Shown here: positions 11,036-49,343 of the stretch, piece after piece
Layout: the number at the start of each line of letters is the position of its first letter
Numbering within the stretch: position 1 is the stretch's first letter
Assembly (NCBI GenBank): GCA_030066785.1
Contig: JASJAZ010000008.1
Location: forward strand, 1-57,274
Length of the DNA stretch: 57,274 nt
DNA from: Desulfobacterales bacterium
GTDB taxonomy: Bacteria; Desulfobacterota; Desulfobacteria; Desulfobacterales; JASJAZ01
Direction: 5' to 3'
Made by a program: the position numbers and the translations under genes
Notes under the pieces: model-generated
Told to the model about the DNA's origin: nothing
Database searches by the model: none
The model's input: the letters and a program-made list of their open reading frames with translations, nothing else

Positions 11036-11067
11036 CATAAGCTAAATTAGAGTGGAGGGCGTGAACC

Positions 11068-11613
11068 TTGAAATCTCAAAAGACCAAAAAAACAATCAAA
11101 ACAATAAAAATCGATGTGGACAAATGCAACGGTTGCCGGGCCTGTGAAATGATCTGCTCTGCTTTTCACGCCGAACCGAAATACAGCAGCAATAATCCCG
11201 CTAGATCGAGGATTCGAATTATTCGCGAACCACTGCGCGACCTATACATTCCTGTTTATGCAGGTGAATATGCCGTTGCCGAGTGCGCGGGTAGGGATAA
11301 ATACACCATTGACGGGAAAGAATATGACGAGTGCTCTTTCTGTCGGGCATCGTGCCCGTCAAGGGACGAATTCAAAGAACCCGATTCCGGCCTCCCGCTC
11401 AAATGTGATATGTGCGAGGGTGAACAGGAGCCCTTGTGTGTAAAGTGGTGCATGCACGACGCATTGCTTCTTGAAGAAAGAGAAGAAGAAGTCGATGAAC
11501 CGGAGCCCGAGGATGAACAGGAAGAGTTGGAAATCGGATTGGAAGCTTTGGCTGACAAGTACGGCTTGGAAAAGGTAAAAGACGCGATGGCCCGAATTTC
11601 TAAAAAGGATTAA
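11068..11613 (+). CDS. bamC: Benzoyl-CoA reductase FeS subunit BamC
   Basis: A 181-residue polyferredoxin that shuttles electrons to BamB. Cysteine groups are CNGCRACEMIC near residue 19, CSFCRASC near 91 and CDMCEGEQEPLCVKWC near 113, enough for three [4Fe-4S] clusters. The C-terminal 50 residues are very acidic (EEREEEVDEPEPEDEQEE) and have no cluster motif; they may be a docking tail. The start is a TTG at 11068, chosen because GGAGGG at 11054-11059 sits eight bases before it and no in-frame ATG fits. It lies 32 bases after bamB. Confidence 0.9.
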   Translation: MKSQKTKKTIKTIKIDVDKCNGCRACEMICSAFHAEPKYSSNNPARSRIRIIREPLRDLYIPVYAGEYAVAECAGRDKYTIDGKEYDECSFCRASCPSRDEFKEPDSGLPLKCDMCEGEQEPLCVKWCMHDALLLEEREEEVDEPEPEDEQEELEIGLEALADKYGLEKVKDAMARISKKD

Positions 11614-11648
11614 CCCGGCAAGGTCAAAAAAAAGGATCAATAAAGACA

Positions 11649-12800
11649 GTGGAAACAGTCGCCCCTTTCAAAGAAGTCATTGATGAGATTAAAGAATCAG
11701 GTGGAGACGCCTTCAGGTACTGCTTTCAATGCGGATTATGTGATACGGTTTGCCCCTGGAACAAGGTCAGGCAATTCAGCATCCGCAAGATCATTCGTGA
11801 AGCGACATTTGGATTGACCGAAATCGAAGGCGAGAATATATGGCGCTGTACGACCTGCGGAAGATGCCCTGAGCGTTGTCCCAGAGGCGTGAAACAGATT
11901 GAGGTCGGAGTTTCTCTGCGACGGGTCGCCTCAGCCTATGAAGTTTTTCCCGCCTCGGTACGCTCCGCGCGTACGGCCAGAGCCAGCCTCATCTCCGAAG
12001 GTAACCCTCTGCAGGTGGAACGCAGCAAGCGTGCGGATTGGGCCAAGGGTCTGGCGGTTAAAACATTCAGCGAGGAAATGGAGATATTGTACTTCGCTGG
12101 CTGTTACCTTAGTTTCGATCCCAGAATGAAAAAGGTGGCTGTGGCCACGGCCGATATCCTCAACAAGGCCGGCGTTGACTTCGGCATACTGGGCAACAAA
12201 GAAAACTGCTGCGGCGAGAGCATCCGCAAAATCGGCAGTGAGAATGTATTTAAGGATCTAGCCAAACAAAACATCAAAACTTTTATCGATGCGGGTGTGA
12301 AAAAAATCGTTGTTTCATCACCGCATTGCTACCACACCTTCAAAAATGAATATCCTGAATTCATGGTGAACTTTGAGGTAATTCATATCGCTCAGTATAT
12401 ATCTGAGCTGATCAATGAAGGGCGACTTCAGATAAGCAATGCCTATGACAAAAAAGTAACCTATCATGATCCGTGTTACCTAGGGCGACATAACGACATA
12501 TATGATGCGCCCCGCGACATACTTCAGAAAATTCCCGGGTTGGAGCTGGTCGAGATGGTGGATTCTCGCTCTAACAGCTTATGCTGCGGCGGCGGTGGCG
12601 GAAGAATTTGGATGGACACGCCCAAGGAGGAAAGATTTTCAGATATTAGATTACAGCAATCCAAAGCTTCGGGGGCGCAGGTGCTGGTCACGGCCTGCCC
12701 TTATTGCATCACCAACTTCGAGGAAAGCCGCTTGAACCTCGAGTATGATGACGTCATAGAAATTAAGGATATCACGGAAATTATCCAGGAAATTATCTAG
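11649..12800 (+). CDS. bamD: BamD, HdrD-like FeS protein
   Basis: A 383-residue soluble protein with two [4Fe-4S] motifs at the N-terminus (CFQCGLCDTVCP and CTTCGRCPERCP) and two CCG domains like HdrB/HdrD. The first has AGCYLSF, NCCGES and SPHC, so the first Cys of the CxxC pair is Ser; the second is complete (HDPCYLGRHND, LCCGGGGGRIW, CPYC). It has no membrane helices, unlike the two membrane oxidoreductases of this window. It is thought to link BamBC with the BamE-I electron-bifurcating part. It starts at GTG 11649, 35 bases after bamC. Confidence 0.88.
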   Translation: METVAPFKEVIDEIKESGGDAFRYCFQCGLCDTVCPWNKVRQFSIRKIIREATFGLTEIEGENIWRCTTCGRCPERCPRGVKQIEVGVSLRRVASAYEVFPASVRSARTARASLISEGNPLQVERSKRADWAKGLAVKTFSEEMEILYFAGCYLSFDPRMKKVAVATADILNKAGVDFGILGNKENCCGESIRKIGSENVFKDLAKQNIKTFIDAGVKKIVVSSPHCYHTFKNEYPEFMVNFEVIHIAQYISELINEGRLQISNAYDKKVTYHDPCYLGRHNDIYDAPRDILQKIPGLELVEMVDSRSNSLCCGGGGGRIWMDTPKEERFSDIRLQQSKASGAQVLVTACPYCITNFEESRLNLEYDDVIEIKDITEIIQEII

Positions 12801-12867
12801 CCCATATTGGGACTAACCCGGCCGATCTAAGATTCAATGGCCTGAAAATATAATGAGGGGATCGAAA

Positions 12868-15800
12868 GTGGAAAACGAAGTATTGCCAAAGGAAGTCATT
12901 CAACAATTTTCCGGGAGCCTTGAAGGCGCCAATTTCGGAGATGTTATGGTTGTCGGCGGCGGCATCAGCGGCATCCAGGCGTCTCTTGATCTGGCCACGG
13001 CAGGATTTAAAGTCTATTTGGTTGAAAAAGGACCAAGCATTGGCGGCCATATGGCCCAGCTTGACAAGACCTTTCCAACCAATGACTGCTCCATGTGAAT
13101 CCTGGCGCCCAAACTGGTCGAGGTCGGCCGGCACCCCAACATAGAAATTTTGACATTCACGGAAGTCGACGGTGTAGAGGGACAAGCAGGTGATTTCAAA
13201 GTCACCCTGACCACCAAGCCCCGATACATTATCGAGGACAAATGCACGGGCTGCACCACCTGCGTAAAGTACTGCCCGGTAGAATACCCCGATCCCTTCA
13301 ATCAAGAAATATCGGACAACAAGGCTGTGCATGTATACTTTTCCCAGGCTATTCCCCTGGTGGCCTACATTGACGAAAGCTGTCTTTTTCTGAAAGAGGG
13401 AAAGTGCGATATCTGCCGAGGCGTGTGTCAGGCCGATGCCATCGATTTCAAACAAACCACAGAGAAAAAACAAGTCAATGTCGGGGCCATCATCTTGTCA
13501 TCCGGCATGCAACCGTTCGATCCGCAAACCAAAGATGAATACCAATACGGCAAGCTGCCGAATGTGGTCACCAGCATGGATTATGAACGGCTGCTTTCCT
13601 CCACCGGCCCATACGGCGGCAAGGTATTGCGCGGTTCCGACCGCAAGCATCCCCAGAAGGTCGCCTGGATTCAATGTGTCGGATCCAGACGGGTGCTCGA
13701 GGATGAAAACAGTTATTGCTCCGGCGTATGCTGCACCTATACCCAGAAGCAGGTGATCCTGACCAAGGATCATGAACCCGACGCCCAGTGCACCATTTTC
13801 CATAACGATATTCGCTCGTACGGCAAGGATTTTGAACGCTACTTTCAAAGGACGGAACAACTGCCCGGCGTAGAATTCATCAGAAGCTACACCTCCATCG
13901 TCGGAGAAAACCCGGCAAACAATAACGTCATTGTAAGATATGCGACCAATGATGATGGCGTCAAAGAAGAAGAATTCGAAATGGTGGTCTTGTCGGTGGG
14001 ATTGAATCCTCCGGCGGACAATGCGGTCTTGGCGGATAAATTCGGCTTAGAACTCAGTTCTCACGGATTCAATAAAGCCATTCACTCCAATCCCATGGAG
14101 ACCAATCAACGCGGCATTTTTGTCAGCGGCGCCTTTCAGGGACCTACCGATATACCCGAATCGGTATTTAGCGCCAGTGCGGCCGGCACCCAGTGCGGCG
14201 AAATGCTTGACTACCGGCGTGGGAAGCTGTCTACGGAGAGGGTTTATCCGCCCGAACGCGATATCTCCCAAGAGGCGCCCAAAATCGGCGTCTTTGTGTG
14301 CCATTGCGGGGCGAATATCTCCAGTGTGGTAAATGTTCCCGACACCGTAGAATATGCCATGACCCTGCCCAATGTGGTCTACGCCCAGGAACAGCTCTTT
14401 TCCTGCGCCAACAATTCTGCCAAGGAAATATCCGATCTGGCCAAGGAAAAAGGACTGAATCGGGTGGTGATCGCAGCTTGCTCCCCCCGAACCCTGGAGC
14501 CGTTGTTCCGGGACACCCTGCGCGAAGCCGGTCTTAATCAATATTACCTGGATATGGCCAATATCCGGGAGCACTGCTCCTGGGTGCATTCCAAAGAAAA
14601 GGAAGAGGCCACGGAAAAGGCGCAGGATATCATCAGAATGTCGATTGCCCGTGCCGGCCATCTGGAACCCTTGCAGGAATTCGACCTTCCGGTGAACAAA
14701 ACGGCCTTGGTGGTCGGCGGCGGTATCGCCGGTATGACCTGCGCGCTTTCCATCGCCAAACAGGGGCATGAGGTTCACCTGATTGAAAAAGCCAAAGACT
14801 TAGGCGGCATAGTCCGCCGAATCCATACCACCATCGAAGGGATGGATGTTCAAGCATATTTGAATGATCTGATACGGGCGGTCTACAATAATCCCCTTAT
14901 CCACGTATCCCATGAAGCCACCATCACCGACGTATCCGGCTACCTGGGTAATTTTGTTACCACGGTAAAGGCCGAAGGCCGGATCAAAGAGATCAAACAT
15001 GGCGCCTCGGTCATTGCCATCGGCGCGGACGTGTACAAACCCACCGAGTACCTTTACGGCGAAAATGATAAGGTCTTTACCCACATCGAATTAGGCGAAG
15101 AAATCGCCAAGCAAAATGAAACCGTTCTTAATGCCGAAAGCCTGGTGATGATCCAGTGCGTCGGCTGTCGAAACGAGGACAGAAATTATTGCAGTCGGGT
15201 GTGCTGCAGCCACGCGGTAAAAAATGCCTTGAAACTTAAAGAGACCAATCCTGCGATGGATATTTACATCCTCTTTCGGGACATGCGTACCTATGGATTG
15301 CGAGAGGATTATTACCGCGAAGCATCGGACAAACATGTAAGGTTTATTCGCTACGTACCGGAAGATCCGCCGCTGGTGGAAACAGCCAAAGAGGGCGGCA
15401 AAGATATTATTCGGGTCACCGTGCCGGATACCATTCTGGGCCAGCGGCTTGAGTTGGATGCCGATATCCTCTCGCTGGCGGCGGCGGTCATTCCTTCTGC
15501 ATCGACCAAAGAGGTCGCCGGGTTGTTCAAGGTGACATTGAGCCCGGATGACTTCTTTAAAGAAGCCCATGTCAAGCTAAAGCCCGTGGAGTTTGCCACT
15601 GATGGCGTATTTCTATGCGGAACGGCGCACTATCCCAAGCATATCCAGGAAACGATCAACCAGGCCTACGGCGCCGCCGGTCGGGTCCTGACGCTGCTTT
15701 CTAACGATACGGTTACCGCCTCGGGGTCGGTTTGCGAGGTGATCGAAAACGATTGTGTTTCATGCGGTGCCTGCATTACGGCATGCAGCTATGCCGCTAT

Positions 15801-16005
15801 AGATTTTATCGACACACCGAAAGGTAAAAAAGCGTGGGTCAATCCGATTCTCTGCAAGGGCGACGGTCTTTGCACGGCAAAGTGCCCCACCAGTGCGATT
15901 TTCCTGAAGCACTTTACCGATGAAGCAATTTGGAGCCAAATTGATGCGGCCACCACAAGTGAAGAGATAATACAGCAAATTGATGCCGCGGCTGAAAATG
16001 AATAA
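12868..16005 (+). CDS. bamE: BamE, HdrA-like FAD/FeS selenoprotein (UGA decoded as Sec)
   Basis: One reading frame runs through an in-frame TGA at 13096-13098. Upstream it reads FPTNDCSM and downstream [15 protein letters not shown]; HdrA homologues have Cys at the TGA position, so Sec is inserted (codon 77 from GTG 12868, codon 82 from ATG 12853). GTG is preferred because GAGGGG lies seven bases before it. The protein of about 1045 residues carries two HdrA-like FAD modules: [20 protein letters not shown] near the start and [20 protein letters not shown] near the middle. FeS motifs include [12 protein letters not shown] and two C-terminal ferredoxin clusters ([24 protein letters not shown]). 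FAD here is the likely bifurcation site. A hairpin at 13114-13131 may be the SECIS. Confidence 0.92.
13096..13131 (+). promoter_or_regulatory. Sec UGA codon and SECIS-like hairpin in bamE
   Basis: UGA at 13096-13098. Downstream CTGGTC (13114-13119) can pair with GGCCGG (13126-13131) over six pairs, two of them G-U, leaving the loop GAGGTC. The loop contains GGUC, as in the Escherichia coli fdhF SECIS, starting 23 bases after the UGA, which is within the usual range. Function is inferred from this likeness. Confidence 0.6.
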
Positions 16006-16055
16006 GGGTGTATACATGAGGCAAGTCATAAAGGCGATCAAAGGGGGTGAAAGTG

Positions 16056-16823
16056 ATGAGTGCCGGCCTTGAATTTAAACCTAAAGTTTTAGGCTTTGTC
16101 TGCCATTGGTGAGCCTACGGGGCTGCTGACCTGGCTGGAGTTTCCAGACTACAATATACAAGTGAAATGCGGCTTATTCGGATCATGTGTTCCGGTCGCA
16201 TCGACTTGGAATTCATCCTCAGAGCTTTCGCAAATGGACAAGACGGCGTGTTTATCGGCGGTTGCCGCTTAGATGAGTGCAACTATATCACCCACGGCAA
16301 TTACGATGCGTGGGCCAATACCTACCTATGTAAAAAGATATTAGCGTACATGGGCCTGAACCCCGCGAGGCTGAGAATCGATTTTATGTCCGGCGCCGAC
16401 GGGAATCTGCTGGCCGAAGCCACCGACGATTTTACCGCGCAATTAAAAAAGCTGGGACCCATCGGTGAAAGTGAAGGATTAGACCCTAAGGCGTTAAAGG
16501 TTGGTCTCGAAGCGGCCAGGAAATTGGTTCCTTACATCAGGCTGGTGGAAAGAGAACGGCTCAGAGTACCAGTTAAGACCAAAGAAGCGTATACTGAATT
16601 TTTTGAAAGCAACGAGACAGACCGGTTAGTTGATGACCTTTTATCAGATAAGTGGGCGATCAGCCAGATCATGTTGCTTTTAGAGGAGAAACCCCTTTCG
16701 ACGAGAGACATTTCTGAAAGGCTGGGCCTGAACCCGTCCGATGTGTCCCGACACATGAACACTTCATCACGGCACGGGTTGGTTAAGTACGATGCCGCCA
16801 ACAAATGTTACACGTTGGCCTGA
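16056..16823 (+). CDS. bamF: BamF, MvhD/FrhD-like FeS selenoprotein (UGA decoded as Sec)
   Basis: The frame begins at ATG 16056 (AAAGGGGGTGA ribosome binding site at 16040-16050) and contains TGA at 16110-16112, reading VCHW-Sec-AYGAADLAG. MvhD/FrhD homologues have Cys there, in the CxWC-x-YG motif that binds the [2Fe-2S] cluster. It continues with MCSGRID, GGCRLDECNY and a C-terminal extension that looks like a winged helix (STRDISERLGLNPSDVSRHM), unusual for plain MvhD. The protein is about 255 residues. MvhD passes electrons between HdrA and a hydrogenase or NADH module; here the partners are BamE and BamGHI. A reading from ATG 16167 would lose the cluster motif. Confidence 0.9.
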
Positions 16824-16836
16824 GGAAAGACGGATT

Positions 16837-17289
16837 ATGGATATCGAAAAAATAGACCGGATCATTGATAAACATAACAGCGACGCCAGCGCACTTATTC
16901 AAATACTGCTGGATATTCAAAGCGAAAACAACTGGCTTCCTAAAGAAGCCCTGGACAGGGTTAGCCAACAGTTAGAAGTTCCGGCAACCCGGGTACAGCA
17001 CATCGCTACCTTTTATAAAGCCTTTAGTGTGGTTCCCAAGGGGCGTCATAAGGTCCACATATGTATGGGGACGGCCTGTCATGTCCGCGGAGCAACCCGC
17101 GTACTTGACAAAGTGCAGGAAGCGACGGGAATCAAACCCGGCGAAACGGATCTGGAATTGAAATTCAGCCTGGAAACCGTCAACTGCCTTGGTTGTTGTG
17201 CCTTGGGGCCGGTGATGGAAGTTAACGGTAAAGCCCATGGTAAGATGACACCGAGACAAACAACAGACGTGCTTAAAACTTATGAGTAG
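16837..17289 (+). CDS. bamG: BamG, NuoE-like [2Fe-2S] subunit
   Basis: A 150-residue NuoE/HydA-type thioredoxin-like ferredoxin. The four cluster ligands are in CMGTACHVRGA and NCLGCCALGP. The start is ATG 16837, six bases after TGAGGAAAGA, which itself overlaps the bamF stop; a longer frame from 16792 would run into bamF and is not supported. With BamH and BamI it forms an NADH-oxidising module like NuoEFG. Gene spacing on both sides is 13 and 9 bases, so it is translationally linked. Confidence 0.92.
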   Translation: MDIEKIDRIIDKHNSDASALIQILLDIQSENNWLPKEALDRVSQQLEVPATRVQHIATFYKAFSVVPKGRHKVHICMGTACHVRGATRVLDKVQEATGIKPGETDLELKFSLETVNCLGCCALGPVMEVNGKAHGKMTPRQTTDVLKTYE

Positions 17290-17298
17290 GGGAAAATT

Positions 17299-19221
17299 AT
17301 GGCGCGGTTAAATACGCCTGAAGCATTGGAGTCCTTCAGACAGGAGTTGCTATCTAAAAAAGATCCCAACACGCCATGCATCTCAATCTGTGCCGGTGCC
17401 GGTTGTATCGCTTCGGGTGCGGATGAGGTGATTGCCGCTTTTCAGGCCGAGATTGAAAAAGAAGGCCTGACCGCCAAGGTTGACACCAAGGGAACCGGGT
17501 GCCCGGGATTTTGTGAGCAGGGACCTGTTGTGGTGATCTATCCTGAAGAGACATGCTATCTGCAGGTGCAGGCTGAAGATGTTCCCGAGATCGTTTCCCA
17601 GACGATTAAAGCGCATGAGGTTGTCGAACGCCTGCTCTATGAAGATCCGGTCACAGGTGAAAAAGTAACTCGGGAGTCCGATATCCCCTTCTATAAAAAC
17701 CAGCAGCGGACGCTTCTGTGCAGCAATATTAAAATCGATTCCAAAAGCATCGATGACTACCTGGCCATTGGCGGTTACTCGGCACTGAGCAAAGCCCTCT
17801 TCCAAATGACCGACGTGGCGGTTTTGGAAGAAGTCAAAAAATCAAACCTCAGAGGAAGGGGTGGTGCGGGTTTTCCGGCCGGTCGGAAATGGGAAGGCTC
17901 CCGCAATGCCGCCGAGCCGATCAAATATGTGATCGTCAATGCCGATGAGGGTGATCCCGGCGCGTTTATGGATCGGGCATTGCTGGAAGGCAACCCGCAT
18001 TCAATTCTCGAAGGACTGATCATCGGCGGCTTCGCTGTCGGCGCCCAAGAAGGCTATGTGTATGTGCGTCAGGAATACCCTCTGGCGGTTGAAAACATCA
18101 ACCTGGCCATCAAGCAGGCCGAAGCTTACGGTTTTCTGGGGGAAAATATCCTGGGTTCGGGATTTAATTTCAAAGTCATCGTCCACATGGGGGCGGGTGC
18201 GTTTGTCTGCGGTGAATCAACCGCATTAATGACGGCCTTGGAGGGCCGTGTCGGTGAGCCCAGGCCCAAGTATACTCGATCCAATATCAAAGGCCTTTGG
18301 GAAAGGCCTTCGGTGTTGAACAATGTCGAGACCTGGGCCAATGTGCCGTTAATCATCAATAACGGTGCTGACTGGTTTACCACCGTCGGCACAGACGGCA
18401 GCAAGGGGACCAAAATCTTTTCGCTGGTGGGCAAGATCACCAATACCGGGCTTGTGGAGGTCCCCATGGGAATCACCCTGCGAAATATCATTTACAATAT
18501 CGGGGGTGGAATCCCTGAAGGCAAGAAGTTCAAGGCGGTGCAGACCGGCGGTCCCTCCGGCGGATGTATTCCCGAAGATCAATTGGACCTTGAAGTCGGA
18601 TTTGATGAGTTGACCAAGGCCGGCTCAATGATGGGTTCCGGCGGGATGATCGTTATGGATGAAGATACCTGCATGGTCGATGTCGCCCGGTACTTCATCG
18701 AATTCCTCACGGATGAATCCTGCGGCAAGTGTATCCCGTGCCGGGAAGGTTTGCGGCAGATGCACAGAATTTTAACCAATATCACCAGAGGAAAGGGAAA
18801 AGAAGGTGATATCGAGCTTTTAGAGGAGCTGTCCGAAACGGCCATTGAAGCCTCCCTTTGCGCATTAGGAAAAAGTGCCCCCAATCCGTTTTTGAGTACG
18901 CTGAACTATTTCAGGGATGAGTATGAGGCCCACATCAGGGACAAACGATGTCCGGCACTGTCCTGCAAGGATTTGGTTTCGTATGTGATCGACCCGGACA
19001 AGTGCCAGGCCTGTATGATATGCCTGCGGAAATGTCCGGCCGATGCAATCATCGGCGGCAAGAAAAAGATTCATGTGGTTGACCAGGAAAAATGCACCAA
19101 TTGCGGAACCTGTCTTGAGGTCTGTCCCTCCCGATTCGGTGCGGTAAAAATAGTTTCAGGCGAATTAGACCTGCCCCCCATCCCTGAAGAAGAACGCAAC
19201 ATAGCCAGAAAGAGCAACTAA
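17299..19221 (+). CDS. bamH: BamH, NuoF-like NAD(H)/FMN subunit
   Basis: A 640-residue flavoprotein. Order of domains: an N-terminal thioredoxin-like [2Fe-2S] part with CAGAGC and GTGCPGFCEQGP, the NuoF core with NADH/FMN motifs LRGRGGAGFPAGRKWE near residue 184 and DEGDPGAFMDRALLEGNP, the [4Fe-4S] motif SCGKCIPCREG near 474, and two C-terminal ferredoxin clusters (CQACMICLRKCP, CTNCGTCLEVCP). This is the architecture of bifurcating HydB/NuoF-like proteins. In the Bam complex it should oxidise or reduce NAD(H) while passing electrons toward BamEF. Confidence 0.93.
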   Translation: MARLNTPEALESFRQELLSKKDPNTPCISICAGAGCIASGADEVIAAFQAEIEKEGLTAKVDTKGTGCPGFCEQGPVVVIYPEETCYLQVQAEDVPEIVSQTIKAHEVVERLLYEDPVTGEKVTRESDIPFYKNQQRTLLCSNIKIDSKSIDDYLAIGGYSALSKALFQMTDVAVLEEVKKSNLRGRGGAGFPAGRKWEGSRNAAEPIKYVIVNADEGDPGAFMDRALLEGNPHSILEGLIIGGFAVGAQEGYVYVRQEYPLAVENINLAIKQAEAYGFLGENILGSGFNFKVIVHMGAGAFVCGESTALMTALEGRVGEPRPKYTRSNIKGLWERPSVLNNVETWANVPLIINNGADWFTTVGTDGSKGTKIFSLVGKITNTGLVEVPMGITLRNIIYNIGGGIPEGKKFKAVQTGGPSGGCIPEDQLDLEVGFDELTKAGSMMGSGGMIVMDEDTCMVDVARYFIEFLTDESCGKCIPCREGLRQMHRILTNITRGKGKEGDIELLEELSETAIEASLCALGKSAPNPFLSTLNYFRDEYEAHIRDKRCPALSCKDLVSYVIDPDKCQACMICLRKCPADAIIGGKKKIHVVDQEKCTNCGTCLEVCPSRFGAVKIVSGELDLPPIPEEERNIARKSN

Positions 19222-19222
19222 A

Positions 19223-19837
19223 ATGAGCGACATTCCTTTACAGATAGATGGCCAAGAAGTCAGTGCCAAGGAAGGCACAACTGTTTTAGAAGCAGCCCAG
19301 GGTATGGGGATATCCATACCCACGCTTTGCCACCACGAAAAATTGGAACCCTTTGGAGGATGCCGGCTTTGTATTGTAGAAGTGGAATCGCGTGGCTGGA
19401 CCAAGCTGGTGGTTTCCTGTGTTTATCCGGTTGAAGAAAATTTAGTGGTCAGAACCAGATCCGACAAAGTGGATCGACTCCGCAAGACCATCCTGGAACT
19501 GCTGCTGGCCCACGCCCCGGACGCACCGCAATTGGTGGAATATGCCCAGGTATACGGCGCAGATAAAGACCGTTATGAGAAAGATCCTTCATTCTGCGTC
19601 CATTGCGGACTTTGTGTCAGATATTGTGCCGAGGTAAAAAAGGCCGACGCACTGGGTTTTGTTGACCGCGGTATTCGCAAAGAGATCAGTTTTATTCCCG
19701 AAATCGCCGCCAAGGAATGCAATGCGTGCAAAGAATGCTTTCCGCTCTGCCCGACATCGTATCTCCAAGCTGCTTTTGTTTTAACCGAATCGCTGGCGTT
19801 TCCTTCGTCGTCGGCCAAATCCGTTTCAAAGGCATAG
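19223..19837 (+). CDS. bamI: BamI, NuoG N-terminal-like FeS protein
   Basis: A 204-residue protein like the N-terminus of NuoG or HydA. A [2Fe-2S] ferredoxin domain has PTLCHHEKLEPFGGCRLC and a later Cys in VVSCVYP. Then come CVHCGLCVRYC and CNACKECFPLCP for two [4Fe-4S] clusters. No hydrogenase H-cluster or molybdopterin domain follows. The ATG is one base after the bamH stop. It closes the bamB-I set; bamR begins 51 bases downstream. Confidence 0.9.
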   Translation: MSDIPLQIDGQEVSAKEGTTVLEAAQGMGISIPTLCHHEKLEPFGGCRLCIVEVESRGWTKLVVSCVYPVEENLVVRTRSDKVDRLRKTILELLLAHAPDAPQLVEYAQVYGADKDRYEKDPSFCVHCGLCVRYCAEVKKADALGFVDRGIRKEISFIPEIAAKECNACKECFPLCPTSYLQAAFVLTESLAFPSSSAKSVSKA

Positions 19838-38922: not shown

Positions 38923-40416
38923 TTAATCGCTGTGAAACACCAGGGATTTCACCGTCACCGGAAACACCTGATTCTTCACCAAAGGCTCACCGATATCGAT
39001 CCAGTCTCCCTCTCTAAGATCCAATTCGTCAAGGGTGAGCAGATTGGTTTTGAGATCTGTTTCCCGGCGGATGACGTTCCCGACGCCGCAGGCGATATCG
39101 CTTTTAAAAATGAGAATAATCGGCAGGTGCATTTTAATGGCGTTAGGCAGCGCCGCCTCGATGGCATGCGCAAATAACTCCAGCTTAGGATAGGAGTTGC
39201 CCACCAGGTCCTTGAAATAAAGGGCCACCATGTCTTGGCCTTCTGCCAGATCGAATCTTTTAAATGCGTCGGCAACCTTGGAGACCACGTGATCGTGGCT
39301 CAGTTTGGATTGCTCCACATCAACCCTGATAACCGGTACATTCCGGATTGGGAAGGTCAATTGATCGTCCATGAATCCCGAAGATCCTGAGATCGACAAG
39401 GTGTGCACACCCGCGCCAATGACAGTGGCCCTGATTTTGTTCGTCGGTTCAACGAGCGGAATGGTCAGCTGGGGTATCTGGGAAAGTAACTTGGCCGCGA
39501 GAAGTTGGCCGATGTCGCCGTGATTGCCATTGTCGCCGTATTTCAATTCAGTGACGGCGCCCGAAAAAAGATCGCAGTGCTTACCATTGTCGCAGTACAT
39601 ATATTCTGAGACGCCACCCGAAAAAATGTATTCATCGATTGGTTTGGAAAAATCCAGATTATCTGTCACCATTAGCATTTTAGGCAGATCTGAAACGGCA
39701 GGGCCGGTGATCACCTCGATGAGCGCTTCGGCGAGTGTTGTAGCGATCTGGTCAAGCACCTTCAGGGGAATTTTGTCCCCGATATTATAGTGCAGGCCTA
39801 AATGGTCTATAACCCTATGGGCCGGTTGACTCATTCGCGATATTTGCCCTTGCGTATTAACGGCAAGCAACCTACCGCCCACGGCAATACAGCCGGTTGA
39901 TACGATCTTACCATCGATCGAGATGGCCATATTGGATGTGCCACCCCCTATATCGCAGGAAAGTACGGTTTTGCCGGCTTTTTTTGATCGATCGGTGGCG
40001 CCTGAACCCATTGCGGCAATAACACTCTCGAAGTTGGGCCCTGCGGTGGCTGCAACAAATTTCCCCGCATCACTGGCCAGTGCTGCAACGATTTGTTCTG
40101 CGTTTTGTTTCTTGGCTGTTTCTCCGGTTATGATCACCGCACCGGTATGGACATCATCCAGTTCAACGCCTGCACGCTGGTACTCGCCCCTAAAAAAGCC
40201 GGTCAAACTCTCGATGTCGATCGTGTCCTGATCCAATAGGGGCGTATTGATAATTTGGCTTTCGTAAACAACTTTTCGCTCAGCGATATTAAACCGGCGG
40301 GTCTTCGATTTCTCATCCCTTCTCAAAAAGAGATTGGCGAAAGCCAAATGGCTCGTGGACGACCCCACATCAATCCCAACACTAAGCAGCTCGATTGCAT
40401 TAACTTCCATCGACAT
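38923..40416 (-). CDS. EutA-like reactivating factor, actin-fold ATPase
   Basis: A 497-residue protein like EutA, the reactivase for ethanolamine ammonia-lyase. It begins SVGIDVGSSTSHLAFANL, continues with ITGETAKKQNAEQIV, and has the actin-like phosphate loop LSCDIGGGTSNMAISIDG near residue 150 and FSGGVSEYMY near 270. No eutBC genes are in the window. It is the last gene of a tight minus-strand operon after a MetV-like gene (4-base spacing), so it may act on another cobalamin enzyme. Family assignment is good; target unknown. Confidence 0.85.
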   Translation of the reverse strand: MSMEVNAIELLSVGIDVGSSTSHLAFANLFLRRDEKSKTRRFNIAERKVVYESQIINTPLLDQDTIDIESLTGFFRGEYQRAGVELDDVHTGAVIITGETAKKQNAEQIVAALASDAGKFVAATAGPNFESVIAAMGSGATDRSKKAGKTVLSCDIGGGTSNMAISIDGKIVSTGCIAVGGRLLAVNTQGQISRMSQPAHRVIDHLGLHYNIGDKIPLKVLDQIATTLAEALIEVITGPAVSDLPKMLMVTDNLDFSKPIDEYIFSGGVSEYMYCDNGKHCDLFSGAVTELKYGDNGNHGDIGQLLAAKLLSQIPQLTIPLVEPTNKIRATVIGAGVHTLSISGSSGFMDDQLTFPIRNVPVIRVDVEQSKLSHDHVVSKVADAFKRFDLAEGQDMVALYFKDLVGNSYPKLELFAHAIEAALPNAIKMHLPIILIFKSDIACGVGNVIRRETDLKTNLLTLDELDLREGDWIDIGEPLVKNQVFPVTVKSLVFHSD

Positions 40417-40420
40417 ATCC

Positions 40421-41092
40421 TCATAACGGTTTATTGAAGGGCCGGACCAGGCTCCGTGGCCCTTTTCCGTCGGCGGAACGCCAGTCTCTGAGTTGCCGCA
40501 TTTTATGCATACAATGAAGTTGGTTGGTTTTTTTCAGCTTGTAGTAAATCATTGACCAAGCGCATGGTGTTTCCCGTCGCACCTCACAACTGCCGTTATT
40601 TGTGCCGCCACAAGGTCCATTGAAAAGATTCTTCGCGCATCTGGCAATAGGGCATATCCCTCCAGTGTGGGCCAGCATGCAGTCCCCGCAGCCCCTACAC
40701 ATTTCCTGCCAGACACCTGGTTCGCTTGTGGCACCCATGAATGTCGTGTTGACAGCTGGGATAATGGGCACGGGATCAAAAACTGCTGCCATGGTCTGCA
40801 CACCTGCCCCACAGGCCAAGGTTAACACCGCATCGGTGCCTTCCGGAATATTTAAAAATGATTTTAAAAAATCAGGCTCGCATTGGCGTTCGATGGTAGC
40901 CACCGAAAGACACGGCGGCTCTTTTTCGTAAAATCGGACATGGCCCAGTTCAGTTGCCAATGCGTTGGCCTCCCTGTCACCACCGGTGAGACAAACGGAG
41001 ACACAACCGCCACAGCCGACGACGAAAACCTTCCGATATTCCGCTATGCTGGCAACAATTTCCTCCAACGGCTTGAGATGGCCAACAATCAT
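40421..41092 (-). CDS. MetV-like protein (methylene-THF reductase C-terminal family)
   Basis: A 223-residue cysteine-rich protein. The N-terminal part has VVGCGGCVSVCLTGGDREAN, then a Rossmann-like core with LACGAGVQTMA. The C-terminal zinc/FeS part has CRGCGDCMLAHTGGICPIARC and KNLFNGPCGGTNNGSCEV, the signature of MetV and of methylene-THF reductase C-terminal domains. MetV partners MetF in the Wood-Ljungdahl methyl branch. No metF is nearby; its neighbours are two ferredoxins, so here it may be part of a different FeS complex. Confidence 0.85.
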   Translation of the reverse strand: MIVGHLKPLEEIVASIAEYRKVFVVGCGGCVSVCLTGGDREANALATELGHVRFYEKEPPCLSVATIERQCEPDFLKSFLNIPEGTDAVLTLACGAGVQTMAAVFDPVPIIPAVNTTFMGATSEPGVWQEMCRGCGDCMLAHTGGICPIARCAKNLFNGPCGGTNNGSCEVRRETPCAWSMIYYKLKKTNQLHCMHKMRQLRDWRSADGKGPRSLVRPFNKPL

Positions 41093-41096
41093 ATCG

Positions 41097-41495
41097 CTAT
41101 ACCTCCATTTTCCGGGTGCGGCCCTTCAAAAAATGGGCCCCAGCAATCTTGGGCAACTCATCCCGGTGCTTGGAACAAACAGGTTTAAACGTTTTATCCA
41201 TTTTTTCAGATAAGGTTTTTCCGAAATCCGCCGTATACAAGGGATCACCACATACGCTACAGTAGACCAGATCGAGAGTTTTCACTTCATCCCATCTGTT
41301 CTCAAGGAGAAATTGAAATTCTATGGCTTCTTGTGGACAGATTCGCCAGCAATTGCCGCAGCGTGCACAGCGGGTCATATTGTGGGAAAGAACACGGCTG
41401 GCTTCTGCATCCACTGCGCGCAATGCAGTCGCAGGGCAATTTTGGACGCATGCCAGGCACCCGTTACATCGATCATTGACTTGAAAATAGGACAT
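41097..41495 (-). CDS. Ferredoxin-like protein with extra Cys-rich tail
   Basis: A 132-residue protein from ATG 41495 (RBS GGAG 13 bases upstream). Two [4Fe-4S] motifs, CNGCLACVQNCP and CARCGNCWRICP, fill the first 60 residues. The tail has YCSVCGDPLY and a further Cys-His (VCSKHRDELPKIAG), which may bind zinc. It overlaps nothing and ends four bases before the MetV-like gene. It likely carries electrons within the module made by this operon. Alternative start 41543 has no ribosome binding site. Confidence 0.8.
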   Translation of the reverse strand: MSYFQVNDRCNGCLACVQNCPATALRAVDAEASRVLSHNMTRCARCGNCWRICPQEAIEFQFLLENRWDEVKTLDLVYCSVCGDPLYTADFGKTLSEKMDKTFKPVCSKHRDELPKIAGAHFLKGRTRKMEV

Positions 41496-41576
41496 GATCT
41501 TAGCTCCATCTGCTCTATACAAAAATTTATATGATAACCCCAAAGGCCGTCACATAACGCTTAAGTGCCGACAGGT

Positions 41577-42064: not shown

Positions 42065-43150
42065 TTAAGCTTTTAACTGGTCCCACAGATCATCGATCCG
42101 CAGCCGATCAAATACCTTCCTTTTTTTAACCACCGCCTTGCGGGTCCACCCGTAATCACGATACTTCTCGGCTGTCCGTCCTCTTTGAGCGGCAATACCC
42201 TCCCTGATGTTATACAGTCGTTCAAGCGTGATACAGCGGTAAGCAATATCTTTCAAATCGTTTTCATTCAGCACCACGCCGGTGTTGAGCCGGATCCGGT
42301 CCAGCGCAGTTGCAAAGACAGATGCCGTGACATCACCGCCACCATTTGTTCCCAAAGGCAGACCGAGGCACTGCTTAATGGTTTCTTCGATTTCCATCAA
42401 CTCTACCTTTCCTGCCGGACCGCTGATTATAGACGCCTCTAAATCATTTGATGGTGTTATTGGGTCCAAATGACGATTTAGATAGTTCTTTTCGTATTCA
42501 ATAATACCCTCGGGATCTTTTACCTCTATGTCCAAGGTTCCCCTGCAGGCCACTGCTTCAATATTTTTATTGGCAAGGACCGCACCTACGTCGCTGCTTT
42601 CCGGTTCGTCATCAGGGGATAAAGAATCATCTTCAAGCAAAAACCGATCTTCCCCCTCTTTTTTGATGCCGAGCAATCGGGTTTCTCTGCCGGCTGTGGC
42701 ATCACGAAGATTTGTTCTGCGTTCAATCGGATTCTTTCCCGCGAAGTTGGGTGCTTCGATAAGCTCGATATGGCTGTCATGGATGAAAAGATAGGTTGGT
42801 CTATTGGCCCGGCCTTTAAAAACAATGTGATCAAAACCCGCCTGGCGCATCTCAGAGGCAAATGGGCCGTTCAGGCGCGCCCTTGACATTAAATCTGTGG
42901 ATCCGGATTTGGTTGTAAGAATCGTATATCCCTGGGTAGCGCTCAATGTACCACCCAACAATCCACTACTGATCACACAAACATTTTCGGCGGAGAGTGG
43001 GTGGCACTTTTTCGGCGCATATCTACAGAGCAGATAGACCGCAAGACCAGCACCTCCAAGAAATCTATCTCGCAAATCCGCCGATACCGGAAAAGTGTCG
43101 ATGTGACGCCGGGCGAGATCTATAAAGGCAATTTTTCGATATAATGCCAT
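42065..43150 (-). CDS. AOR-family paralogue lacking the FeS-binding middle part
   Basis: A 361-residue protein. Residues 1-215 follow the tungstopterin domain of AOR (FLGGAGLAVYLLCRYA, GGTLSATQGYTILTTKSG, DVGAVLANKNIEAVACRG). Residues from about 290 follow the AOR C-terminus (LNTGVVLNENDLKDIAYRC, LERLYNIREGIAA). Roughly 280 residues of domain 2/3 present in the full-length AOR at 43746-45686 are missing, including the CxxCxxxC cluster ligands. There is no stop or frameshift, and the gene heads an operon, so it may be a non-catalytic or scaffold subunit. It could also be a neutral deletion derivative. Confidence 0.82.
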   Translation of the reverse strand: MALYRKIAFIDLARRHIDTFPVSADLRDRFLGGAGLAVYLLCRYAPKKCHPLSAENVCVISSGLLGGTLSATQGYTILTTKSGSTDLMSRARLNGPFASEMRQAGFDHIVFKGRANRPTYLFIHDSHIELIEAPNFAGKNPIERRTNLRDATAGRETRLLGIKKEGEDRFLLEDDSLSPDDEPESSDVGAVLANKNIEAVACRGTLDIEVKDPEGIIEYEKNYLNRHLDPITPSNDLEASIISGPAGKVELMEIEETIKQCLGLPLGTNGGGDVTASVFATALDRIRLNTGVVLNENDLKDIAYRCITLERLYNIREGIAAQRGRTAEKYRDYGWTRKAVVKKRKVFDRLRIDDLWDQLKA

Positions 43151-43375: not shown

Positions 43376-43430
43376 TTGACATACGATCTGATAATGGTAT
43401 GGTTTTGCTCAAATTGGTTCACTATAATGA
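43376..43430 (+). promoter_or_regulatory. Promoter of the AOR operon with IclR-type half site B
   Basis: TTGACA (43376-43381), 16 bases, TATGGT (43398-43403). Directly downstream, near the expected transcription start, GGTTCACTATAATGA (43416-43430) repeats the left half and core of operator A and of the iclR palindrome. Position fits repression. The -10 is a moderate match. Confidence 0.6.
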
Positions 43431-43465
43431 TTTTTTGCATTAGGTATTCCGGAAAGGAGAGGCGC

Positions 43466-45686: not shown

Positions 45687-45714
45687 CCCGCACGTGCGTA
45701 AAAAGGAGATAAAA

Positions 45715-46224
45715 ATGGAATCTAACGGCAAGGTACTATTAATCAATCATGAAAAATGCACGGGATGCAGGCTTTGTGAACAGGTTTGCGCGGTAAAACA
45801 CGATGGCATATCCAATCCTACACGCAGCCGCATTCGTGTCATGAAATGGGAAATGGAGGGTCTGTACATCCCCATGTCCTGCCAACAGTGCCAGGATGCG
45901 CCTTGTTTGACCGGCTGCCCGGTTGGCGCCATAGCGCGGAATGAAACGATGAACCGGGTTGAGGTTGACTATGACATCTGCATCGGGTGCCGAACCTGTG
46001 TCTCGGTCTGCCCCTTCGGTGCCATGAACTATAACGTTATCGACAGAAAAGTCGCCAAATGCGATCTTTGCGACGGCGAGCCGCAGTGCGTGAGGTTCTG
46101 TGAAGTAAAAGCCGTCGAGTATGTGGACGGCGGAGATGTCAGTATAGAGAAGAAAAGACATGCCGCCCTGCGCCTGTCCATGGCCAGCAAGCAGGCAGCC
46201 GCACTAGATGAACATGCCGTTTAA
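45715..46224 (+). CDS. Polyferredoxin, AOR electron-transfer subunit (right module)
   Basis: A 169-residue protein with four [4Fe-4S] motifs: CTGCRLCEQVC, CQQCQDAPCLTGCP, CIGCRTCVSVCPFGA and CDLCDGEPQCVRFC. It is the paralogue of the protein at 41577-42050. Start ATG 45715 follows AAAGGAGATAA. It lies 28 bases after AOR and is the last gene before a strong terminator, so the operon is zinc ribbon, AOR, ferredoxin. It should carry electrons from the AOR [4Fe-4S] cluster to a soluble acceptor. Confidence 0.9.
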   Translation: MESNGKVLLINHEKCTGCRLCEQVCAVKHDGISNPTRSRIRVMKWEMEGLYIPMSCQQCQDAPCLTGCPVGAIARNETMNRVEVDYDICIGCRTCVSVCPFGAMNYNVIDRKVAKCDLCDGEPQCVRFCEVKAVEYVDGGDVSIEKKRHAALRLSMASKQAAALDEHAV

Positions 46225-46408: not shown

Positions 46409-46681
46409 CTACCCCCCCGCCAGCAGTATGGTCAAGTGGATCTCATCCCCAGCATTTACAGCCTTTTTCAGCTCATCGGGGTAGGCGCTCTCCATATTCA
46501 AATAAATCTCGATAGTGTTGAGCAATTTGCCCTTGCCATCGAAAAGCTTTTCTTTCAATCCTGGGTACCGCACAATCAAGTCGTCGATGCACTCGCCAAC
46601 CGTGTTGCCTTCGGTTTCGACTACTTCCAATCCGTCCGCGTGTGCACGATGGGTTTGGTGAAGGTTGATCATGACGCCCAT
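46409..46681 (-). CDS. MoaD/ThiS-like beta-grasp protein
   Basis: A 90-residue ubiquitin-like protein ending in LLAGG, the free Gly-Gly that is activated and thiocarboxylated. The body shows VGECIDDLIVRYPGLKEKLF and LNTIEIYLNMESAY, as in MoaD. It is convergent with the AOR operon. MoaD-like proteins near AOR genes are often used for tungstopterin synthesis. The adenylating enzyme may be the ThiF/HesA protein at 36265-37011. RBS AAGGAGC is visible before the ATG. Confidence 0.85.
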   Translation of the reverse strand: MGVMINLHQTHRAHADGLEVVETEGNTVGECIDDLIVRYPGLKEKLFDGKGKLLNTIEIYLNMESAYPDELKKAVNAGDEIHLTILLAGG

Positions 46682-46894: not shown

Positions 46895-48280
46895 TCAGCT
46901 GGGTGCGGGCGGCTCCCACCACTCCACCCATGAGTTCATCCTTGGATACTGCAATCCGGTTTCGGCCTCCACGGCCCGGATCCAGTCGCCCAAGGCCGAG
47001 TCATGATGAATGATCAACGGCGTACTGTGATACGGCAGTATATCAACGTCCAAGCCATAATTACCGATCACCTGCTGATTTCGCGCAAGGGTCTCTTCCG
47101 AATCCCATGGGGTTGGATGAATAAATCCATGATTGCCCCCTTCATCTCGCGTATAGCTCAACTGAAACGGAAACTCTTTTTTCAGCCGGCGGATTAGTCG
47201 CACGGCTTTCAAGTTGGATGACACGGTCACCCCCTTGTTCAAATTACGCAGTATCACGTTATTAAAGCTCTCAAAGCCCACCGAGGCCAAAACAATGACC
47301 ATTCGATGCTTGCGCGCAAGCTGCAAGGCCGAACGGAACGATCTTGCGCCCTTTAACAAGGCGTCAACCCTCACGGCCAAACCAATTTTCGACAGCCCCA
47401 AGCTTCGGGAAAGGCATGCGTCAATGAGCGAAACCAAGGAGGGAAAAGGATTTTCATTAATCAGTTCAAAAGGGATTTTACGGCCATCCGGTCCATCCGG
47501 CAACCCTTTGATCTGGCGCAAAACGGTTGCCAAATCCAAAGATCCGAAAAAGCCTTTATCCACGGCGACATCACAGAAACTGCATCCTTTGGAATTGATG
47601 TGGATTTTTTTGCCGGTCATTTCGGGTATTGCCGCCGGAAAATCAATCCCAATCCTATGACGACCCGCTGCCCAGGGGCAGCCGATCTGTTGGAGGACCT
47701 GACCCTGTGTTATCTGGAGAGGGACAAACCCGCTTCTGTCTAAGATGCAAATGTTTTCCCATTCAACGTGATCGAGATAACACTGATCCCAGTCATTGGC
47801 CGGATTACGGATCAAGCTGCCGTTCCGATCCAGGTAGGCAGAACCGTGGAGTGCTTTCCATTTGATATTTACGGGATCATCAAGAAAGGGAATAATCTGT
47901 TCCGCCGGTCCCTGGAGGGCAAAGCTGAAATGATCAGAGAATCCTTTAAATCGATGCCGCCAATTCCGCCGCCCTTTTTCACCGCAATAGTCCACCGCGG
48001 CCTGAGGTCCGGCCAGAATTGTTATGGCCCCCTCTTTTTTTAGTTCACGGGCCAGCGAAATCAGATCTTCCCGCCCGCTGAGGTTTGAAAAACCCACAAT
48101 TGGCATTTGACTGCCAAAATAGCTGCTGAGCGCCCGCTTTAAAAATGTTTTCTTGTATCCGGCTGGTAATGCGATAACGATACTCTCGCATGGGGAGTTT
48201 CTCCGGATAACGCTGGCCGCCATTTGGGGTCCAAGCACGCCATAGCTTTCACCCTGAAAATAAGATGAAATGATGGCCAT
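46895..48280 (-). CDS. Radical SAM-like protein with B12-binding-like N-terminus
   Basis: A 461-residue protein. The N-terminal 150 residues have a Rossmann-like layout (FSNLSGREDLISLARELKKE, ITILAGPQAAVDY) as in B12-binding radical SAM proteins. The expected cluster loop reads INSKGCSFCDVAVDKGFFG. It has CxxC but Asn at the position of the first Cys of CxxxCxxC, so canonical cluster binding is doubtful. The downstream barrel (GLAVRVDALL, VLASVGFESFNNVILRNLNK) is radical SAM-like. It is divergent from the IclR gene and upstream of the MoaD-like gene. Function unknown. Confidence 0.7.
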   Translation of the reverse strand: MAIISSYFQGESYGVLGPQMAASVIRRNSPCESIVIALPAGYKKTFLKRALSSYFGSQMPIVGFSNLSGREDLISLARELKKEGAITILAGPQAAVDYCGEKGRRNWRHRFKGFSDHFSFALQGPAEQIIPFLDDPVNIKWKALHGSAYLDRNGSLIRNPANDWDQCYLDHVEWENICILDRSGFVPLQITQGQVLQQIGCPWAAGRHRIGIDFPAAIPEMTGKKIHINSKGCSFCDVAVDKGFFGSLDLATVLRQIKGLPDGPDGRKIPFELINENPFPSLVSLIDACLSRSLGLSKIGLAVRVDALLKGARSFRSALQLARKHRMVIVLASVGFESFNNVILRNLNKGVTVSSNLKAVRLIRRLKKEFPFQLSYTRDEGGNHGFIHPTPWDSEETLARNQQVIGNYGLDVDILPYHSTPLIIHHDSALGDWIRAVEAETGLQYPRMNSWVEWWEPPAPS

Positions 48281-48563: not shown

Positions 48564-49343
48564 ATGTCTTTAAAGAAAAAAAAACCAGATGGTTACCATG
48601 CGCCTGCCGTAGAAAAAGCATTCCGTTTACTTAGATTTGTGGCCAATTCCAATGAAGCCTTGAGACTCAGCGATCTGTCGGCTCACCTTCAAATCAGCAA
48701 AAGCACCACCCATGGCTTGATCCGGGCCCTGGTTGCCACCGGCGCCCTAAACCAAAGCACACAGAATAAAAAGATCACCCTGGGACCGGCCACGGTTGAA
48801 CTGGCCTTGAAAAACCAGAACTATCTACAATTGGGCACCTTGACCCAGCCCCTCCTTGATGATTTGCGGGACCGCATCAATGAGACTGTTTTTTTCGGCC
48901 TGCTGCACCCGTGGCGTGCACTCATCATGGCCACTTCCGAGGCCCGCAAACCCATGAAAATCTCATCTCCTCCAGGATCCTCGGTTCTCTTAATGGTGGG
49001 TGCCCTGGGAAAGGTGTTTCTATCACAGATGGATGATGCCGAGGTGCTTCAAATCATCAAGGAGAATGGATTGCCGCAGTTCACCAATGCCTCGATCATC
49101 GATGAGCAGACTTATTTGAAAGAAATTGCCTATGTCCGTCAAACGGGGTATGCCCTGGACAAAGGCGAATATTTGTCCGGCGTCAATGCCATCGCTGTCG
49201 GACTGGGCCACCATTGCGAACTGCCCGTGGTCTTATGGGTGGTTGGGTTTGCCGAGTCTTTAAACTCGGAAAAAATCGATGAGGTCAAAGAATTAATCCT
49301 GGCAACGGCCACTAAACTGCGCAAAGTGCTGCATACCAATTGA
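48564..49343 (+). CDS. IclR-family transcriptional regulator
   Basis: A 259-residue regulator. The N-terminal winged helix reads AVEKAFRLLRFVANSNEALR, then LSDLSAHLQISKSTTHGLIR (recognition helix). The C-terminal effector domain begins near residue 95 and holds AYVRQTGYALDKGEYLSGV and VNAIAVGLGHH, typical of IclR. The palindrome in its own leader suggests autoregulation. Sites with the same sequence in the divergent AOR promoter region suggest that it controls the AOR modules. Its ligand is unknown. RBS AAGGAAAG precedes the ATG. Confidence 0.92.
   Translation: MSLKKKKPDGYHAPAVEKAFRLLRFVANSNEALRLSDLSAHLQISKSTTHGLIRALVATGALNQSTQNKKITLGPATVELALKNQNYLQLGTLTQPLLDDLRDRINETVFFGLLHPWRALIMATSEARKPMKISSPPGSSVLLMVGALGKVFLSQMDDAEVLQIIKENGLPQFTNASIIDEQTYLKEIAYVRQTGYALDKGEYLSGVNAIAVGLGHHCELPVVLWVVGFAESLNSEKIDEVKELILATATKLRKVLHTN

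Follow-up and report, generated by a model that had tools for sequence, protein, structure and literature searches.

A shortened, apparently non-catalytic AOR paralogue at the head of a ferredoxin and MetV operon in Desulfobacterales

The closest described relatives of the gene reported here are the large subunits of the tungsten AOR/WOR family (AOR, aldehyde:ferredoxin oxidoreductase; subunits AorB and WorL; structures 1aor for PfAOR and 8c0z for AorB), whose genes are paired with that of a four-cluster ferredoxin. A cluster cysteine motif has been reported in about 99% of AOR-family proteins, and in the Aromatoleum AOR, a ferredoxin nanowire with an AorA/AorB protomer, the AOR-fold subunit AorB docks the polyferredoxin AorA (PMC10413684). 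WOR4 of Pyrococcus furiosus has altered cluster ligands, and no activity was detected for it (PMC12096430). A classification of WOR proteins into 92 clades requires both the AFOR_N and the AFOR_C domain (PMC13328260). In MetVF-type methylene-THF reductases, electrons are thought to come from ferredoxin (PMC8760232). In the open literature searched, we found no truncated or non-catalytic AOR/WOR paralogue of the kind reported below, which is weak evidence given that open papers only were covered, and work on the proteomes of Desulfobacula and Desulfococcus made no mention of the gene.

We analysed a 57,274-nucleotide stretch of contig JASJAZ010000008.1 (assembly GCA_030066785.1) from a Desulfobacterales bacterium, called the window here. 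Its genes are arranged as two divergent AOR/ferredoxin modules, as the initial annotation had proposed (Table 1). The minus-strand module runs from a short AOR paralogue, the pseudo-AOR, through ferredoxin A, ferredoxin 2 and a MetV-like gene to a EutA-like gene. The pseudo-AOR had been described as an AOR paralogue lacking the FeS-binding middle part, with about 280 residues missing, and as a complete gene heading a tight operon, followed by a four-cluster ferredoxin paralogous to that of the full AOR; each of these points held. The protein is 285 residues shorter than the adjoining 646-aa AOR: domain 2 and half of domain 3 are gone, and so are the four cysteines of the cluster and the residues that anchor the pterin. 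Residues 1-205 form the beta-sandwich of AOR domain 1, the C-terminal helices span about 246-322, and a conserved tail (323-361, ...RIDDLW) completes the protein. In a Pfam search, AFOR_N (PF02730) matched at residues 6-205 over the full domain length (E=5e-40) and AFOR_C (PF01314) at residues 281-323 only (43 residues; 20.9 bits, under the 27-bit cut-off); the adjoining AOR matched both domains completely. Since both domains are needed for entry into the current classification, it would miss the shortest pseudo-AORs. A good ribosome site (AAAAGGAGGGGGTATG, reverse strand) lies upstream of the ATG, and the gaps within the operon are 11 bp before the ATG of ferredoxin A, ~80 bp before ferredoxin 2, and 4 bp before each of the MetV-like and EutA-like genes. 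Ferredoxins A and B were 41% identical. The whole genome contains 12 AOR N-domains.

Table 1. Features of the two divergent modules and their surroundings, in window coordinates.
Feature	Position	Strand	Remarks
EutA-like ATPase-fold protein (PF06277)	38923..40416	-	last gene of the operon
MetV-like protein (PF12225, methylene-THF reductase C-terminal family)	40421..41092	-	
Ferredoxin 2	41097..41498	-	two [4Fe-4S] motifs and a Cys-containing C-terminal part
Ferredoxin A, 158 aa	41577..42053	-	four [4Fe-4S] motifs (by eye); second gene of the operon
Pseudo-AOR, 361 aa	42065..43150	-	ATG start, no internal stop; heads the operon
Palindrome TTCACTATATTGAA	43277..43290		between the divergent operons; probable IclR-family operator
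Second operator-like site	43418..43431		one mismatch; near the catalytic operon
Zinc-ribbon protein, 93 aa	43463..43744	+	directly upstream of the catalytic AOR
Full catalytic-type AOR, F-type, 646 aa	43746..45686	+	with cluster cysteines and pterin residues
Ferredoxin B	45694..46224	+	four clusters; partner of the catalytic AOR
MoaD/SAMP1-like sulfur-carrier protein	46409..46681	-	frequent at AOR loci of this kind
Perfect palindrome TTCACTATAGTGAA	48503..48516		just upstream of the IclR gene
IclR-family regulator	48564..49343	+	between or beside both divergent operons in most relatives

The pseudo-AOR and the AOR/WOR large subunits are homologous in domain 1 and the C-terminal helices, and both are paired with a four-cluster ferredoxin; unlike those subunits, the pseudo-AOR has no domain 2, cluster cysteines, pterin ligands or active-site His. 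Measured against WorL, the catalytic large subunit, it has AFOR_N and the AOR fold and is without AFOR_C, the four cluster cysteines and the pterin/Mg ligands. As in the Aromatoleum protomer, a polyferredoxin is combined with an AOR-fold subunit; in contrast to that system, the subunit here is predicted to be cofactor-free, and the operon showed no FAD subunit resembling AorC. WOR4 likewise has altered cluster ligands, but it still binds W and a 3Fe cluster and is not truncated. A MetV-family gene is common to the operon and to the MetVF-type reductases (PMC8760232), but no MetF adjoins the MetV copy in the window; the other two of the three MetV copies in the genome share contigs with MetF.

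Relatives were sought within the order (146 genomes, then 389), in the genus Desulfobacula, and in 395 genomes across the phylum, and the gene context was read at about 60 loci. At least 14 intact pseudo-AORs of 316-555 aa were found, including the window gene and all in Desulfobacterales; this number is a lower bound because the order-wide search scored three candidates per genome, and a further copy interrupted by N (G065) was left out. The check proposed initially, a search for homologues that resemble the gene in length and lie in synteny with full AORs, returned proteins of 374 (G356), 365 (G244), 330 (G236) and 316 aa (G364) in Desulfobacula, with 50-55% identity to the window protein. 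Elsewhere, next to the 361 aa of the window, lengths were 387 (G178), 395 (G138), 498 (G007), 509 (G018), 519 (G161), 524 (G064), 538 (G015) and 555 aa (G106 and G195), most relatives outside Desulfobacula retaining 498-555 aa. In 13 of the 14 loci, the gene could be seen to diverge from an operon of zinc-ribbon, AOR and ferredoxin genes; the exception was G018, in which the two lie on separate contigs, and the G364 contig stops within the zinc-ribbon gene. Ferredoxin A followed in all 14, as did ferredoxin 2 and MetV wherever the contig extends, and this place at the head of the operon and the divergent synteny were kept across about ten genera and several families. In Desulfobacula, MetF (PF02219) comes after EutA within the operon. 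The ferredoxin A operon was also present without a pseudo-AOR (G002, G112, G055, G158 and G092). Outside the order, no pseudo-AOR-type match was found in the 395-genome phylum sample, which consisted mostly of other orders, and plasmid records gave partial AOR matches alone, at <60% identity.

The possibility that the short gene is an assembly artefact or a neutral deletion private to one genome would have been favoured by finding the same deletion in no other genome. Homologues are present in other genomes, nothing was found in support of an artefact, and the same architecture and synteny at this level of identity in independent genomes leave that explanation virtually ruled out. Nor is the deletion a single fixed event: stepwise shortening was seen across the family, and gene loss in several lineages.

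In a common alignment, the equivalents of PfAOR Arg76, Asn93, Gly95, Cys288, Cys291, Cys295 and His448 were absent from all 14 pseudo-AORs and kept in 25 of 25 full-length F- and C-type AORs compared; in solved structures, these positions anchor the tungstopterin and the cluster (PMC10413684). The cluster cysteines (CxxCxxxC and C494) were gone apart from a single Cys that G178 has in the C494 column. One of the two AORs had been called apparently non-catalytic, and the loss of cluster, pterin and active-site residues throughout the family agrees with this. From the alignment, the pseudo-AOR is predicted to be a large-subunit paralogue within the tungsten AOR family that has lost catalysis. 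With common descent from catalytic members, loss of catalytic residues and purifying selection (below), it qualifies on its sequence as a putative pseudoenzyme. The same losses bear on a role as a cofactor chaperone that would supply the catalytic AOR with tungstopterin. The protein still has the domain at the base of the cofactor site, but the pterin/Mg anchors Arg76, Asn93 and Gly95 are missing from every member, and the Arg182 equivalent is likewise lost in the window protein, making such a role highly improbable. Of the initial suggestion of a scaffold, chaperone or regulatory subunit, the chaperone was therefore dropped, whereas a retained non-catalytic paralogue was upheld.

An N-domain tree placed the 14 pseudo-AORs in one clade (100/99) nested in catalytic C-type AORs (98/86), with the F-type AOR next door separate from this group. 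The tree rules out a recent duplicate of the adjoining AOR; the short gene belongs to a different, C-type lineage. In a ferredoxin tree, ferredoxin A also formed one clade (100/99), which included the ferredoxins whose pseudo-AOR is missing and was sister to the ferredoxins of catalytic C-type AORs (97/85). In G171 and G187, ferredoxin, MoaD-like, ferredoxin 2 and MetV genes still have a catalytic C-type AOR at their head. These trees indicate a single descent of the pseudo-AORs from a catalytic C-type AOR. The simplest history would be that of a second catalytic AOR operon in which the AOR died and was retained, then became shorter in several lineages and disappeared from at least 2-3.

Two further observations were made among these loci. 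At L109 and L111, the order of catalytic C-type AOR, ferredoxin, MoaD-like, ferredoxin 2 and MetV genes ties a tungsten AOR to MetV, a gene-order link that is seemingly undescribed. A second truncated AOR in G004 (L126:8517-9680; 388 aa) is without CxxCxxxC and has its own ferredoxin directly after it; it keeps the Arg76 and Cys494 equivalents, lies in a different context and outside the pseudo-AOR clade, and is apparently an independent truncation; it was set aside.

An AlphaFold model of the pseudo-AOR built with 52 aligned relatives was compact (pLDDT 88.3, pTM 0.90), with the C-terminal helices packed on the beta-sandwich; a four-sequence prediction (pLDDT 45) was discarded. Foldseek with this model returned AOR-family structures alone at E<=0.001, with E from 1e-15 to 1e-19. 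Full AORs were in the AlphaFold alignment and the fold match is thus partly built in; the informative result is the compactness of the joined pieces.

Pairwise omega of the pseudo-AOR was 0.30 (G356-G244), 0.34 (G236-G364), 0.33 and 0.37 (other Desulfobacula pairs) and 0.29 for the 555-aa pair (G106-G195), about three times the 0.07-0.12 of the catalytic AOR in the close pairs where the two were compared. Neutrality was rejected in the three pairs tested (p<=3e-6), and neutral simulation at the divergence between the window and Desulfobacula gave a mean of 12 stops and an open frame in 0 of 1000 runs. Between the same two, the C-terminal tail was 79% identical compared to 53% overall, with synonymous sites near saturation. 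These estimates indicate that the constraint on the pseudo-AOR is real purifying selection, relaxed relative to the catalytic AOR.

Several relatives do without the pseudo-AOR, which makes decay the main rival to a retained function. A dead AOR would be decaying stepwise, with residual selection merely preserving translation of the operon (coupling to ferredoxin A) or avoiding misfolding. The graded lengths (538, 390, 361 and 316 aa, then loss), at least 2-3 independent losses with ferredoxin A retained, a further 41-residue deletion inside the beta-sandwich of three Desulfobacula genomes (G236, G364 and G386), two frameshifts in the G386 copy and the raised omega are all consistent with decay. 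However, the frameshifts may be errors, because coverage of that contig is low (3.9) and its MetV gene is broken too. An omega well below 1, in the 555-aa forms also, together with 14 intact frames, a C-terminal tail specifically conserved between families and a compact predicted fold, argues against decay, and we consider it rather unlikely.

The reading that fits the neighbourhood best is that the pseudo-AOR, what is left of a second catalytic AOR, has been retained in a ferredoxin-MetV chain as a structural, non-catalytic subunit, probably docking ferredoxin A, because AorB and AorA provide a model for such docking, MetVF enzymes are presumably fed by ferredoxin, and MetF follows EutA in Desulfobacula. 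We give this reading about an even chance. Ferredoxin A would be docked by the surviving beta-sandwich, the conserved C-terminal helix, or both. Doing no chemistry itself, the pseudo-AOR would either keep the electron chain of ferredoxin A, ferredoxin 2 and MetV in one assembly or tether that chain to the catalytic AOR and ferredoxin B. Counting against a structural subunit, the gene is absent where ferredoxin A, ferredoxin 2 and MetV persist and so is not essential to the module, and the threefold omega, the beta-sandwich deletions and the one frameshifted copy weigh in the same direction. More tentatively, and at clearly less than even odds, we propose that in sulfate reducers cofactor-free pseudo-AORs act as scaffold subunits through which a tungsten AOR module is joined to a MetV(F)/ferredoxin chain. 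If true, the pseudo-AORs would be an undescribed family, in a complex where one of two AOR-fold subunits has turned purely structural. The family appears to display stages of a metalloenzyme becoming a structural part or being lost, and it suggests that in sulfate reducers, Desulfobacula included, a tungsten AOR is linked to a MetV-type chain in a way that is unstudied and apparently involves co-regulation.

A TTCAYTATARTGAA-like palindrome was present in 16 of 17 divergent intergenic regions of related loci, often twice, about 130-185 bp apart. Such sites numbered 26 in 4.7 kb of intergenic sequence versus about 3 in the remaining 225 kb, an enrichment that is descriptive, the pattern being partly derived from the same intergenic regions. 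The only other exact match in the genome (C262:9924) was, by eye, apparently inside coding sequence. The palindrome is probably an IclR-family operator, and it would follow naturally that the IclR regulator controls both operons and its own gene. Because the palindrome is shared by the intergenic regions and a site lies upstream of the IclR gene, the pseudo-AOR and catalytic AOR modules are probably co-regulated and expressed together.

This apparent co-regulation through shared operators and the constant neighbourhood would also suit a regulatory or assembly subunit acting directly on the catalytic AOR, as a heterodimer partner, inhibitor or activator, and pseudoenzymes often regulate their relatives. 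However, domain 2, which carries the homodimer contact in PfAOR structures, is deleted in the short forms, and the pseudo-AOR goes with a separate ferredoxin lineage, distinct from the AOR/ferredoxin B pair. We regard direct action on the catalytic AOR as quite unlikely.

Several minor observations concern the surrounding genes. The 93-aa zinc-ribbon gene was immediately 5' of such AORs in nearly all loci read. In several related genomes, some of them Desulfobacula (L088, L091, L097, L105 and L124), a conserved group of genes lies ahead of another AOR operon; the group includes a UPF0261 protein and three proteins of ~200-226 aa. In nearly all F- and C-type full AORs, the second-shell residues PfAOR Glu313 and Tyr427 are replaced by Thr and Ser with His448 retained, and these enzymes may act on something other than an ordinary aldehyde. 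The EutA-like gene is conserved at AOR loci, although the genome (92.9% complete) yielded no EutB. The ethanolamine link that EutA would suggest was rejected on this ground, and the EutA-like protein probably serves something besides ethanolamine ammonia-lyase. A 461-aa protein at 46895-48280 has a Cys-rich motif (GCSFCDV) and no Pfam match, is perhaps radical-SAM-like, and has ~50% identical copies near several AOR loci. Finally, a class II benzoyl-CoA reductase cluster (BamBCDEFGHI-like) was recognized by eye at 9044-19837, with an AOR-family BamB at 9044, its ferredoxin, and HdrA-like and NuoEFG-like genes; by eye, genes typical of ring-cleavage beta-oxidation come after it.
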